DNA of 64,000 bases from Hymenobacter aquaticus (GTDB taxonomy: Bacteria > Bacteroidota > Bacteroidia > Cytophagales > Hymenobacteraceae), in NCBI RefSeq assembly GCF_004765605.1, contig NZ_SRLC01000001.1, forward strand, positions 310,001 through 374,000. The letters are read 5' to 3'. The position numbers and the translations under genes are program-made. Below the pieces are notes generated by a model. It had not been told where the DNA came from, searched no databases, and saw nothing but the letters and a program-made list of their open reading frames with translations. Shown in pieces: positions 23,300-27,575 of this stretch (position 1 is its first letter; each line of letters opens with the position of its first letter).

Positions 23300-23339
23300 A
23301 GCGCCCCGGCCGGGCCCAATATGGGCCTGCCGGGGCGCT
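23300..23339. repeat. Large GC hairpin (perfect inverted repeat)
   Basis: AGCGCCCCGGC (23300-23310) pairs with GCCGGGGCGCT (23329-23339), and an inner dyad GGCCCA-ATA-TGGGCC fills most of the loop, giving a nearly continuous 40-nt cruciform. It has no T-run. It lies between the USP terminator and the nuclease-like gene. Confidence 0.5.
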
Positions 23340-23425
23340 GCCGCGCCTGGGCAAGCTACCGCAGTGGCGAAAATATCGTAGACTTCCGGGACAATGACCC
23401 GGTTCTGGTTGTTGCCTTATTCGCT

Positions 23426-24127
23426 ATGCCTACAAACGACTCCTTTCGTCGGCCCGACCTGCTCCGGCTGCCCTACGACGACTACCGCGCCCTGCCCGCC
23501 ATTGCCAACTCCGACCTGTCGCGCCTGCGCGATGCCCTGAACGGCCGCTACCAGAAATCCTCCTCCCTGACCGGGGCGCTGGGCCTGGGTACGGCCTTCC
23601 ACACCGCGCTGCTGGAGCCCGAACTCTACCAGGCCGGCCAGCCGGGCATCAACGACACGCTGATCTGGTGGATGGTGGAAGGCGTCAAGCTCAACCCCTA
23701 CCTGCTGAACCTGCTGGAAAACGGCGTGCCCGAGCCCAGTTGCATCTTCACCGAGCCCACCACCAACACCGTCTGCAAGCTGCGCGCCGACCTGGTAGCG
23801 CCCACCACCGACCGGGGCTACACCATCGTGGACTTCAAAACCACCATGGCCCGCGACTACAACCACTTTCTGGCCCAGTGCAGCGGCTACGACTACGACC
23901 GGCAGGCCGCTTTTTACCTCGATGCCCTGCAGGCCGACCGATTCCTGCTCGTGGGCGTGCAGAAAGTGGAGCCCTTCAGCGTATTCACGGTAGAAGTGCC
24001 GGCGCACATGCTCGACGAAGGCCGGGCCAAATACCTGCGGCTGCTGCGTATGCTGCTGCCCGAAGCCGAACTGCCCGGCTACGTGACCGAGGCCGTGCGG
24101 GAAGTGCGCGACGGGCTGATGGGCTAG
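23426..24127 (+). CDS. PD-(D/E)XK nuclease-like protein (RecE/exonuclease VIII-like)
   Basis: A 233-residue protein. The N-terminal LGLGTAFHTALLEPELY matches the 'G.A.H.lllep' motif of the RecE/PDDEXK_12 family. The catalytic core is visible as KLRADLVAPTTDRGYTIVDF and then KTT, giving the D...(D/E)xK residues near 128, 139 and 141. The later QAAFYLDAL resembles the QxxxY motif of RecB-like nucleases. Phage members are 5'-3' DNA exonucleases, but here no single-strand annealing partner is adjacent, so the role is open. The start is the first methionine after the AT-rich promoter-like stretch. Confidence 0.72.
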   Translation: MPTNDSFRRPDLLRLPYDDYRALPAIANSDLSRLRDALNGRYQKSSSLTGALGLGTAFHTALLEPELYQAGQPGINDTLIWWMVEGVKLNPYLLNLLENGVPEPSCIFTEPTTNTVCKLRADLVAPTTDRGYTIVDFKTTMARDYNHFLAQCSGYDYDRQAAFYLDALQADRFLLVGVQKVEPFSVFTVEVPAHMLDEGRAKYLRLLRMLLPEAELPGYVTEAVREVRDGLMG

Positions 24128-24265
24128 GCCCGGGTAGGACTGTACCCGCTTCTGACGGTATTATGGCCGCTATTTTGAAAAAAAATAATTAAAAACTGAG
24201 GCAATATTTGGTTGTCTTAATTATTGTTTCTTTATTAGCAACGCAAACGACAATAGGCACCCATC

Positions 24266-24376
24266 ATGCAAGTTTTCAGCAGCAGCTTTTTCGCCAATAA
24301 CTCGAATAATAATCTATTCCGGGAATGGAAGGCTGTTGTTCATATAAAAGAAAAAAGAGCAATGATCCAGTTATAA
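24266..24376 (+). CDS. Asn-rich leader peptide of asnA (36 residues)
   Basis: The frame is ATG-CAA-GTT-TTC..., ending TAA 24374-24376. The peptide starts MQVFSSSFFANNSNNNLFRE. Residues 11-16 are N-N-S-N-N-N, five asparagine codons in six (24296-24313), the signature of an attenuation control region. It sits in the 420-bp AT-rich gap between the nuclease-like gene and asnA. Its stop codon overlaps the first base pairs of an intrinsic terminator. No other strong gene features are seen in the gap and the promoter was not recognised. Confidence 0.75.
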   Translation: MQVFSSSFFANNSNNNLFREWKAVVHIKEKRAMIQL

Positions 24377-24407
24377 GCCTTCCATCGTTTTGGAAGGCTT
24401 TTTTTTT
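24326..24407 (+). promoter_or_regulatory. Attenuator of asnA: antiterminator segment plus intrinsic terminator
   Basis: The terminator is AAGCCTTCCA (24375-24384), loop TCGTTT, TGGAAGGCTT (24391-24400), then a run of T to 24407. A second copy of the right arm, TGGAAGGCT, lies upstream at 24326-24334, 12 nt after the last Asn codon, and can pair perfectly with AGCCTTCCA (24376-24384). The two structures are therefore mutually exclusive. A ribosome stalled on the Asn codons would leave the upstream copy free to form the antiterminator. A ribosome translating on would mask it and let the terminator form. The terminator is 140 bp before the asnA start. Confidence 0.78.
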
Positions 24408-24547
24408 ACCTAACTATTTAATTATTCATTAAACACTATGCTGGAAAAAATAAAAACTGCCTTGTAGGCGGACGGCATTTTATTGCCTTTTCCGTCCCGA
24501 TTTTCACTGACATCTACATTCAAACAAAACCAAAAACTTTTTTACGC

Positions 24548-25585
24548 ATGGAAACTACCTTCACCCCCGGCGTCCTGACGACGCCCGCCGACTTGCTGAA
24601 AACCGAAGAGGCTATCAGCTTCGTCAAAGACAGCTTCGCCAAGGAGCTGAGCCGCCAGCTGAGCCTGGTAAAAGTATCCTCGCCCATTGCCGTGCTCGAC
24701 GGCACCGGCATCAACGACGACCTGAACGGCATTGAGCGCCCCGTGCACTTCCCCATCAAGGCCCTCGACGAGCGCCGCGCCGTGGTGGTGCACTCCCTGG
24801 CCAAGTGGAAGCGCGTGCGCCTGCAGGAGCTGGGCATCGAAGCCGGCAAAGGCCTGCTGACCGACATGCGCGCCCTGCGCCCCGACGAAGACTATTCGCC
24901 CATTCACTCCATCTACGTGGATCAGTGGGACTGGGAAAAGCACATTAGCCCCGAGCAGCGCACCATTCCCTTCCTCAAGGCTACGGTGGAGAAAATCTAC
25001 TCGGCCCTGAAAACCACGGAGTTGATGGTGTGCGAGCAGTATCCTGAAATTGAGCCGGTGCTGCCCGAAGCCATTACCTTCATCTACGCCGAGGACCTGC
25101 TCCGGCAGTACCCCGACCTGACGCCCAAGCAGCGCGAGCACGAGGCCGCCAAGGAGTTTGGCGCCATCTTCCTGATCGGCATCGGCGGCGAGCTGAGCCA
25201 CGGTGAGGCCCACGACGGCCGCGCCCCCGACTACGACGACTGGAGCACCCAGAACGAAGCCGGCCACTACGGACTGAACGGCGACATCGTGCTGTGGCAC
25301 CCCGTGCTGGAAACGGCTTTCGAAGTATCCTCGATGGGTATCCGGGTCGATAAAACGGCCCTGACGCGCCAGCTGGAGCTGCGCGGCTGCCCCGAGCGCA
25401 AAGACCTGCACTTCCACAGCCTGCTGCTCGCCGACGGCCTGCCCCAGAGCATTGGCGGCGGTATTGGTCAGTCGCGCGTGGTAATGTTTATGCTGCGCAA
25501 AGGCCACATCGGCGAAGTGCAGGTAAGCATCTGGCCCGAGGCCGTGCGGCAGGAATTGGCCGCTAGCGGAATCGAGCTGCTGTAA
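24548..25585 (+). CDS. asnA: Aspartate--ammonia ligase (asparagine synthetase A)
   Basis: A 345-residue enzyme that makes L-asparagine from L-aspartate, ammonia and ATP in the cytoplasm. It shows the class II aminoacyl-tRNA-synthetase-like fold of AsnA: SSPIAVLDGTGINDDLNG, PIHSIYVDQWDWEKHI, EFGAIFLIGIGGELSHGEAH, HGRAPDYDDW-type loop and the C-terminal motif-3 segment SIGGGIGQSRVVMFMLRKGH. Length and order agree with E. coli AsnA (about 330 residues). It is single, with its own leader (24266-24407) and a shared hairpin downstream. The leader implies control by charged tRNA-Asn. Confidence 0.95.
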   Translation: METTFTPGVLTTPADLLKTEEAISFVKDSFAKELSRQLSLVKVSSPIAVLDGTGINDDLNGIERPVHFPIKALDERRAVVVHSLAKWKRVRLQELGIEAGKGLLTDMRALRPDEDYSPIHSIYVDQWDWEKHISPEQRTIPFLKATVEKIYSALKTTELMVCEQYPEIEPVLPEAITFIYAEDLLRQYPDLTPKQREHEAAKEFGAIFLIGIGGELSHGEAHDGRAPDYDDWSTQNEAGHYGLNGDIVLWHPVLETAFEVSSMGIRVDKTALTRQLELRGCPERKDLHFHSLLLADGLPQSIGGGIGQSRVVMFMLRKGHIGEVQVSIWPEAVRQELAASGIELL

Positions 25586-25727: not shown

Positions 25728-27575
25728 TTATTGTATGGTCAGCTTTTTAGAGGAAATAGTCGTGCCGCTGAGCAGCTGTACTATGTATAAGCCCGGCCGC
25801 AGATTTAATTTAATAGCTACAGAAGATTGATTGCGCGGCGCTATTTCCCGCAGCAGCTGCCCCCGCATATCCACCACCCGAATGGTATGTACATTCTCGG
25901 TGCCTCGCAGCGTGAAATAGCCGTTGGTAACCGGGTTGGGATACAGGCTGACGGCCGAGTTGTCGGCGGGAGTGGTGGCCAGGGTAGTGGTGCGCACGTA
26001 GCTGCGGAGCCAGACCAGGGCCGTACGCTCGGTGTTGTCGTCGTTGACGAGCTGCGCACCCTGGGCCGTGCGCCAGTGGCCGGGGCGGTAGCCCCACATC
26101 GTGACGCCCTTCACGGCCGGGTGCTCCCAGAAAACCGGGAATACGCGCTGGTACTCGGCCAGCTGCACCTGGTCGTCGAGCTGCCCGGCGGTGTTCACGC
26201 CGTCGATATCCAGCTCGGTGATGTAGAGCGGCAGGCCCGCCGAGGCCAGCAGGTTCAGGTTGGCGGTGAGCGTGGCGGCGGGCGTGGGGCGGGTAGAAAA
26301 GGCGTGGCCCTGAATGCCGACCACGTCAAGCAGGTTGCGGGCCTTGAGCAGGTTCACGATGTCGAGGTAACGCTGGGCGCTGGCGCTGGTGTTTTCCACG
26401 CTGTAGTCGTTCATCATCAGCTTGGTGGAAACCGGGAAATACTGGCGGGCCAGCTGGAAGGATTTGATAATCCAGTCCCAGCCCGTGGCGCCGCTGCCGC
26501 CCAGCGCGTTGAGGTAGTTGCCGCCGCCCCCAGTGGTGTTCGGGGGCTGGTGGGTGGGCTCGTTCACTACTTCCAGGAAGTCGATGGCGGGGTAGCGCTG
26601 GGCCACGGCCGCAAACCACTGGTTGATTTCGGTGAGCTGCTCGGCGGCGGACAGCGTCTCCATCCAGGTGGGCTGCTGACTGCCCCACACCAGCACGTGC
26701 ATGCGGAAGGGGTAGCCATTGTCCTTGGCCAGCTTGTAGGCCGCGTCCAGCTCGGTCCAGTTCATCACGTCGCGGGTGCCTTCCACGCTGCCCCACTTGC
26801 CGGCGTTTTCGGGCACTACCTGGTTCCAGTAGGCCGTGAAGTTGGGCAGCTGCGGGGTGCTGTACACGCCGCCCAGAAATTTGGGCTTGCCCGTCGCCAG
26901 CGGCGGACCCACCGGCGTAAACGGCGGCGGGGGCGGATTGACGGAGCCCTGCTGCCCATTGTCGAGGTTGGTGACGGTGAAGTACAGGCCCGTTTGCCCA
27001 AAGACGACTTTGTCGATGTCGAAGCCGTCTTCGCGGGCCCCGAGCTGGAAAATCTGCGTGAGGTTGCCGGCCGTGACGGTAAAGGAAATCGGCGTTTCCG
27101 CGCCCCCGATTTTCGACATGTTCACCCATTTCCAGACGTTGCTCTGGGCTGAGCCGGCCCCGTCCACCACCTGGGAGCCGGTGGTGTAGCCCACGCCCGC
27201 CACCTGATTGATGGTAATCCAGTCGTTGTCGTTGGTGGGCGACTTGAGGCCGAAGCCGTTGCCGTAGTAGAAGCTGTCGTCGTTGGCCCCGGCGCTGCCC
27301 ACCCGCACGCGGGCGTAGAGGTCGTAGGTGCCGGGGCCGGGGAAGGTGACGCTGTAGGTGGCCACGCGGGCCGCGGTGCCCGGGTTTTGGGCGGCAATGG
27401 TGGCCGTGGGCACCACCGAAATGTACTGCACGCCGGCCTGGATGGGCGAGGTCCAGTCGGTGCCCAGGGTGCCGGTTTCGGCCTGCTGCACCACGGGCGC
27501 ATTCTGGGCCTGCGCGGCCGTAAGACCGGCAAAGAGCAGTGCCGGGGTAAGAAATAGGAGTCGAGGTTTACGCAT
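25728..27575 (-). CDS. Secreted GH10 endo-1,4-beta-xylanase with T9SS sorting tail
   Basis: A 615-residue protein. Residues 1-23 are a signal peptide (ending TAAQAQ). Residues 28-200 form a carbohydrate-binding-type beta-sandwich (TYDLYARVRVGSAGANDDSF, GFDIDKVVFGQ). A Pro-rich linker (PPPPPF) follows, then the GH10 barrel with PENAGKWGSVEG, acid/base Glu in VVNEPTH (about E339) and nucleophile Glu in YITELDID (about E454), then MWGYRPGHWRT. The last 75 residues (SLYPNPVTNGYFTL ... GLYIVQLLSGTTISSKKLTI) are a Por/type A C-terminal sorting domain, so export by the type IX system to the surface or medium is expected. It degrades xylan. It is a single gene with operator-like sites upstream. Confidence 0.92.
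   Translation of the reverse strand: MRKPRLLFLTPALLFAGLTAAQAQNAPVVQQAETGTLGTDWTSPIQAGVQYISVVPTATIAAQNPGTAARVATYSVTFPGPGTYDLYARVRVGSAGANDDSFYYGNGFGLKSPTNDNDWITINQVAGVGYTTGSQVVDGAGSAQSNVWKWVNMSKIGGAETPISFTVTAGNLTQIFQLGAREDGFDIDKVVFGQTGLYFTVTNLDNGQQGSVNPPPPPFTPVGPPLATGKPKFLGGVYSTPQLPNFTAYWNQVVPENAGKWGSVEGTRDVMNWTELDAAYKLAKDNGYPFRMHVLVWGSQQPTWMETLSAAEQLTEINQWFAAVAQRYPAIDFLEVVNEPTHQPPNTTGGGGNYLNALGGSGATGWDWIIKSFQLARQYFPVSTKLMMNDYSVENTSASAQRYLDIVNLLKARNLLDVVGIQGHAFSTRPTPAATLTANLNLLASAGLPLYITELDIDGVNTAGQLDDQVQLAEYQRVFPVFWEHPAVKGVTMWGYRPGHWRTAQGAQLVNDDNTERTALVWLRSYVRTTTLATTPADNSAVSLYPNPVTNGYFTLRGTENVHTIRVVDMRGQLLREIAPRNQSSVAIKLNLRPGLYIVQLLSGTTISSKKLTIQ

Follow-up and report, generated by a model that had tools for sequence, protein, structure and literature searches.

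What controls the asparagine-making gene asnA of Hymenobacter aquaticus (Bacteroidota), when a short reading frame filled with asparagine codons and a terminator lie directly in front of it? The locus is found in the window, by which we mean the whole stretch of 64,000 nucleotides of genomic DNA that was analysed. Genes for asparagine are controlled by Asn T-box leaders in Firmicutes, and asnA of E. coli is controlled by AsnC. These systems resemble the unit described here in that asparagine genes respond to the asparagine supply. They differ from it in their sensor, which is a regulatory protein or an RNA that binds tRNA, and not a translated leader. In the classical attenuators of the enteric trp/his type, the leader RNA comprises regions I to IV with the pairings 1:2, 2:3 and 3:4, as described in sections of PMC1183508. 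Here we report comparative evidence that asnA is very probably preceded by a four-segment leader-peptide attenuator, which would let RNA polymerase proceed into the gene only if charged tRNA-Asn is in short supply.

The features of the locus are collected in Table 1. The protein encoded behind the leader scored 408.3 bits against TIGR00669 in a profile search (cut-off 292.8), the terminator stem at 24375-24400 has 10 pairs followed by T's, and the upstream copy TGGAAGGCT (24326-24334) pairs perfectly with AGCCTTCCA (24376-24384). A first-pass annotation of the same DNA had described a leader of 36 codons containing N-N-S-N-N-N, a 10-bp terminator followed by a T-run, a perfect upstream copy of the right arm of this terminator, and an asparagine-making gene behind the leader, all of which we recovered at the same positions.

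Table 1. Coordinates of the asnA leader features in the window and of the attenuators found in Hymenobacter genomes without asnA
Feature	Position	Strand	Basis or remark
Leader ORF, 36 codons, asparagine-rich	24266-24376	+	Translation MQVFSSSFFANNSNNNLFREWKAVVHIKEKRAMIQL; Asn leaders in 50/50 genus loci
Control codons AAT AAC TCG AAT AAT AAT (N-N-S-N-N-N)	24296-24313	+	Codon table, 63 leaders
Segment 1 (24278-24289 and 24294-24296 pair with segment 2)	24278-24296	+	Predicted protector/pause hairpin 1:2
Apical hairpin of 1:2 (24301-24308 pairs with 24315-24323), which includes some of the Asn codons	24301-24323	+	Predicted fold, pair counts
Segment 2, antiterminator arm (24325-24334 pairs with 24376-24385; 24335-24341 pairs with 24357-24363)	24325-24341	+	Predicted fold
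Segment 3, left arm of terminator	24375-24384	+	Terminator scan, alignment pair counts
Segment 4 (24391-24400) and T-run, intrinsic terminator	24391-24407	+	99.3% of cells paired, 63 leaders
asnA, aspartate--ammonia ligase, behind the leader	24548-25585	+	TIGR00669
Orphan attenuators	L112:720-870, L113:3543-3692, L114:816-962, L115:3696-3846, L116:3472-3621

Such an arrangement rarely arises by chance. No other ATG-initiated frame 10-60 aa long, on either of the two strands of the 64-kb window, reaches five Asn within eight codons. When the 420-nt intergenic stretch was shuffled with its dinucleotides preserved, a comparable Asn frame appeared in 2 of 5000 sequences, and a comparable terminator with an upstream copy of at least nine Watson-Crick pairs in 1 of 1000 shuffles of the same stretch. 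The Asn run pattern AAYAAYNNNAAYAAYAAY occurs once in the 5.5-Mb genome, at the leader, and its backwards control gave no match; across the genus, it matches in 82 of 120 genomes, including at other places and with similar control counts in some, so it serves as a marker in its own genome only. As a side observation from the same kind of search, runs of five His codons had 11 sites in this genome and 4 in the backwards control, as a pattern only.

A sigma-70 scan found no promoter at the leader of the window. The Bacteroidota promoter box TAnnTTTG is perfect in 10 of 74 leader upstream regions versus 3.6% of shuffles and agrees at five of six positions in 55 of 74 versus 43% of shuffles; ahead of the window's own leader it is not convincing. 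The upstream neighbour on the plus strand (23321-24124) weakly resembles exodeoxyribonuclease VIII (PRK09709, with a score far below cut-off). In 49 of 63 loci a match to this neighbour adjoins the attenuator, and the other 14 have none within the flank compared. Beyond the 3' end of asnA, the minus strand encodes a protein with a T9SS sorting tail and a xylanase likeness below cut-off (25728-27575). The genome also carries an asnB gene; asnB, checked as a substitute for asnA, was above cut-off in 60 of 61 Hymenobacter genomes.

Across the genus, asnA is present in 50 of 120 genomes and absent in 70, and an Asn leader precedes it in all 50 loci. The neighbouring genus that adjoins Hymenobacter in the AsnA tree has an Asn leader, a terminator and an antiterminator copy before each of its eight asnA loci, in a variant with interrupted Asn runs, mostly NNQNRNN(N). 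The unit is absent in all nine asnA loci from two further genera of the same family. Among the best 80 of 188 relatives, the closest loci come from Hymenobacter species, with those of Solirubrum next to them; all 39 loci from these two genera have the unit, a count that largely overlaps with the genus and neighbouring-genus set. A covariance model of the unit matched once in each of the 50 asnA-bearing Hymenobacter genomes and in five without asnA. Weaker matches in four other genomes (G002, G063 twice, G076 and G093; E 1e-5 to 0.009) have a terminator and no Asn frame and were judged to be chance. The first-pass annotation had read the locus as asparagine attenuation and had named relatives without the Asn run and the arm complementarity as evidence against this reading; all 58 asnA loci of the genus and its neighbour have both, which supports it.

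The 50 genus, eight neighbouring-genus and five asnA-less leaders were combined into one alignment (A2) of 63 leaders, and counts over this set are not independent because the leaders are related. Their first 20 codons include 465 Asn codons (364 AAT and 101 AAC), at least five in each leader, and the other two frames have 10 and 0. In the genus leaders, Asn is kept under AAT/AAC exchange as other residues drift, and it is the residue kept across the run. The last Asn codon lies 13 nt from the GGAAGGC-type core of segment 2 in 45 of 63 leaders (range 9-16), and the stop codon lies 8-19 nt past this core in 47 of 63. Relative to the GCCTTCC core of segment 3, the stop codon is at least 6 nt before it in 60 leaders, 3 nt before it in two, and beyond it in one. 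The window's own stop codon is placed 40 nt past the segment-2 core, overlapping the terminator stem and 3 nt before the segment-3 core, a gap shared only with L003. The contact between stop codon and terminator pointed out earlier is present in the window and is a local peculiarity. The leader frame of L045 (1764-1911) has no stop codon ahead of the terminator and continues beyond it. Together, the stop position in the window and L003 and the frame in L045 suggest that timing matters there.

Folding revealed four segments, in which the start of the leader frame pairs with the antiterminator arm (1:2). For the window, the predicted fold pairs 24278-24289 and 24294-24296 with 24326-24340. The order of control codons, antiterminator and terminator had been recognized in the first-pass annotation, which missed this additional arm. 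Using helices taken from one member (L011), we counted pairs over the 63 leaders. The lower 1:2 helix has at least six of seven pairs in 62 leaders and is absent in L044, and its pairs differ by clade (for instance AACAACG/TGTTGTT, AGCAATA/TATTGCT and GCCAATA/TATTGGT). The 1:2 helix with its apical hairpin is paired in 86.1% of cells versus 29-44% in slid controls, with 39 both-side-changed cells versus 13.4 +/- 2.8 in shuffles and a covariation of 0.206 versus 0.140 +/- 0.007, neither value being reached in 500 shuffles; two of the five measures, pairs with both-side change (80/500) and further pair types (130/500), were not above shuffles. When segment 3 is still to be made, the lowest-energy fold pairs at least five of seven segment-2 bases upstream in 47 of the 63 leaders and not in the other 16.

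The core of the 2:3 pairing, with arms located by motif and segment 4 left out of the fold, has seven of seven pairs in 62 leaders and six of seven in one. The 2:3 arm is paired in 99.8% of cells and the 3:4 terminator in 99.3%; both are conserved and not covarying, with one both-side-changed pair each, and versions of 2:3 slid by +2 and +3 have higher covariation scores than the true register. An alignment with relatives, earlier proposed as a check for conserved Asn codons and compensatory changes in the arms, bore out the Asn codons; compensatory changes are seen in the additional 1:2 arm, and 2:3 and 3:4 are conserved and hardly covary. The features of an attenuator found in the sequence include an intrinsic terminator, a 2:3 arm, a predicted 1:2 hairpin over the control codons and the spacing to segment 2.

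Sequence comparison demonstrates the Asn-rich frame and the predicted alternative pairings 1:2, 2:3 and 3:4, with their order, spacing and conservation, and a mechanism can be proposed on this basis. In the leader without a ribosome, the lowest-energy fold is 1:2 plus 3:4 (1 of 200 shuffles was as stable); segment 2 would be taken up by segment 1, the terminator would form, and asnA would be off. If asparagine is plentiful, the ribosome would pass the Asn codons and cover segment 2, so that 3:4 forms and asnA again stays off. Under asparagine scarcity, the ribosome would stall on the Asn codons and open 1:2, with its front edge just short of segment 2, and 2:3 would form before segment 4 is made; the terminator would then be lost and asnA transcribed. 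The usual footprint of a ribosome fits these distances: on the last Asn codon it leaves segment 2 just free, and at a stop codon 8-19 nt past the core it sits on or beside segment 2. Once segments 2, 3 and 4 are exposed together, predicted free energy favours the terminator, and read-through must therefore depend on timing, as in a kinetic switch. The AsnA made in this state would replenish asparagine from aspartate and ammonia, alongside asnB.

Beyond the two genera, the majority of the Bacteroidota asnA genes covered have no such unit. The best 80 of 188 relatives include 41 asnA loci outside Hymenobacter and Solirubrum, of which 10 have an Asn leader with terminator and 31 lack the unit. 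Searches at the order and phylum levels found the unit absent in 31 of 32 asnA loci, with L162 as the one bearer. Eight loci (L215, L216, L217, L221, L222, L223, L238 and L253), all from metagenome-assembled Bacteroidota records, have two units in series before asnA. Each of their Asn-rich leaders has its own T-run terminator, and the second leader begins 21-48 nt behind the first terminator, a gap that makes a shared transcript likely. Pro-stop closes the second leader at six of the eight loci, and at the remaining two Pro-Pro is found close to the run. The two-unit form before asnA would be a new variant of attenuator. All 19 units outside the two genera, which were found by their Asn content, have 5 to 11 Asn codons. 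Their 2:3 fold ranked 10th or better among 200 mononucleotide shuffles in 13 of 19 units and was not outstanding in the other six (L215b, L216b, L217b, L222b, L253a and L253b).

All three asnA loci found in 27 genomes of one family, f55 (G813 included), also have Asn leaders and terminators. These leaders (L162, L270 and L271) are GC-rich and 47-57 aa long, contain Asn runs and are accompanied by a terminator and a copy of its arm before asnA; compared by eye, they have the Asn codons and arm order in common with the Hymenobacter unit and no evident sequence likeness to it, and a separate origin is possible. An upstream frame in L157, with four scattered Asn codons and a terminator near a presumed, unclear gene start, was not counted as a unit; it could be a decayed or a different leader. 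A partial asnA match was seen in G253.

To place these loci, we built a tree of 99 AsnA proteins from 17 of the 50 genus loci, 4 of the 8 neighbouring-genus loci, 7 of the 9 loci from the two further genera of the family, 30 of the 32 order and phylum loci, and 41 others, namely all the loci outside Hymenobacter and Solirubrum among the best 80 of 188 relatives. The tree was rooted at the midpoint for drawing only, and its long rows are placed unsurely, above all the long branch of L162. A single group of 71 proteins (98/99) contains all 32 bearers of the unit together with 39 proteins that lack it, and the two-unit form is dispersed within this group; six changes on the tree are required for the label 'no unit'. 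Both an old unit lost many times and several gains fit this distribution.

The five Hymenobacter genomes that keep the attenuator without asnA (G049, G100, G112, G116 and G118) retain a promoter-like box, the leader, the arms and the terminator, beside the same upstream gene. In a tree of this upstream neighbour they form one clade inside asnA-bearing species (99/95), which makes a single loss of asnA likely. Their attenuators are 82-95% identical. Identity is 57-78% in the stretch from 200 to 45 nt upstream, 45-87% over the 200 nt that follow downstream, and 81-91% in the coding stretch upstream. No AsnA remnant was found in them by tblastn, which gave chance-like matches only (E 2.6 and above). 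In two of the five, one Asn codon is changed to Ala or Thr with the pairing kept. Selection on the remaining RNA is a fair inference from these comparisons, with a putative function.

Behind the orphan attenuators lies a conserved hairpin element of about 116 nt (z -4.2), which we considered as a new RNA gene and dropped. Its model matches 36 of 120 Hymenobacter genomes, namely the five orphans, 26 in which it lies at the 3' end of asnA or closely follows it, and five with the match at another location; the genome of the window has none. From the matches at the asnA 3' end, we infer that the element represents the remains of the asnA end with its terminator. Taking these lineages together, we tentatively propose, with somewhat less than even confidence, an old family of Bacteroidota Asn-codon attenuators, with the window's unit as one member, that was doubled in some lineages into two serial gates for the same signal before asnA, the second of them usually with a Pro-stop brake at its end, and that in one Hymenobacter clade outlived its gene as a free-standing asparagine-responsive RNA.

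Could the hairpin simply be the ordinary terminator of the upstream gene, with the Asn run as an incidental companion? A same-strand gene does end at 24127, terminator-like sites are common (12 in 10 kb versus 9.5 expected), and the window's leader has no clear promoter. Yet all 58 loci preserve the Asn codons, segment 2 and their spacing, and show synonymous codon exchanges and compensatory changes, the unit is found in all 63 loci although 14 of them have no upstream-gene match in the compared flank, and it recurs before asnA in other Bacteroidota; we regard this explanation as exceedingly improbable. Another alternative is a sensor RNA that itself binds asparagine, or uncharged tRNA-Asn in the manner of a T-box, with the frame left untranslated. 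Riboswitches and T-boxes would likewise be compatible with a structured, terminator-bearing leader ahead of a biosynthetic gene, but neither a T-box nor any other cis-regulatory Rfam family matched the window or the loci at gathering score. The sole match was a tRNA in L238, and the best sub-threshold match within 23900-25000 was Phe_leader (RF01859; 27.4 bits versus 55, E 0.038). The conservation of Asn under AAT/AAC exchange amid drifting residues also argues for a translated frame, as do the GC-rich f55 leaders, whose common Asn codons and arm order come with no evident shared sequence by eye, and we consider an RNA sensor very unlikely.

The orphan attenuators raise another alternative, in which the main role is one in trans, played by the short terminated RNA or by the leader peptide, and the control of asnA is secondary. 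It would account for leaders kept without asnA and better conserved than the stretch from 200 to 45 nt upstream, and trans-acting attenuator products from Sinorhizobium are reported in sections of PMC7298713. The unit model, however, matches only once in each of the 50 asnA-bearing Hymenobacter genomes, the Asn to Ala or Thr changes with pairing kept in two orphans argue against a fixed peptide, and the identity of the upstream coding stretch indicates that the attenuator is no more conserved than the neighbouring gene, leaving a primary role in trans highly improbable. Segment 2 would also be freed by a ribosome slowed on segment 1 for whatever reason, and the leader might thus report the general translation state instead of asparagine; given the Asn codons in all 19 outside units, even if these were found by Asn content, their position before an Asn-making gene, and Asn as the residue kept across the run in the genus, we find this scarcely credible.

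The putative asparagine-responsive four-segment attenuator can be compared with known systems. With the enteric trp/his-type attenuators it has in common control codons for its own product, the 1:2 pause hairpin, the 2:3 antiterminator, the 3:4 terminator, and their order and spacing, as far as these are laid out in sections of PMC1183508. It differs from the enteric attenuators in its predicted amino acid (asparagine) and its gene (asnA), in its Bacteroidota host, in control codons that lie partly in the apical hairpin of 1:2 and, in the window, in a stop codon that touches the terminator. A putative cis-regulatory leader from the same phylum, the Bacteroid-trp motif, carries Trp codons and so concerns another amino acid and gene. 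This motif (RF01692) is presented as likely cis-regulatory in Bacteroidetes in part of PMC2864571; its covariance model has no match in the window, where the codons are for Asn, not Trp.

Leader-peptide attenuation has been inferred for amino-acid operons of Flavobacterium psychrophilum, with conserved 5' elements before pheA and hisG among others, in sections of PMC9723704. These elements belong to the same phylum and mechanism class, and the amino-acid-operon section of that paper has no asparagine element; 'asn' has no occurrence in its main text. Among the papers listed by full-text searches of the open-licence literature, none concerned an Asn leader attenuator, and no Asn leader is mentioned in the parts of PMC2965389 and PMC6429828 covered; Lopatovskaya 2010 (Mol. 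Biol.), cited in PMC4833913, may contain an earlier Asn prediction. The earlier statement that no Asn leader of this kind is described agrees with these searches, but leader-peptide attenuation as such had already been reported for Bacteroidota amino-acid operons, according to the same sections of PMC9723704. The unit of the window would be an attenuator of a known kind with asparagine as a new signal. The tandem asnA loci outside Hymenobacter recall the mgtCBR leader of Salmonella, described in sections of PMC3641672 as tandem attenuators for two different signals with hairpins unlike intrinsic terminators, in having two leader ORFs in series; unlike mgtCBR, both leaders of a tandem asnA locus would respond to the same amino acid, and both have a T-run terminator.

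If this reading is true, asparagine is added to the amino acids that are sensed by translated leaders, with comparative support far better than a single locus gives, and a complete 1:2/2:3/3:4 attenuator is placed in Bacteroidota. The tandem loci provide a natural test of whether two gates in series for the same signal sharpen the response. The asnA-less Hymenobacter clade allows a direct test of whether an attenuator can persist after the loss of its gene, as an RNA that has a function of its own.
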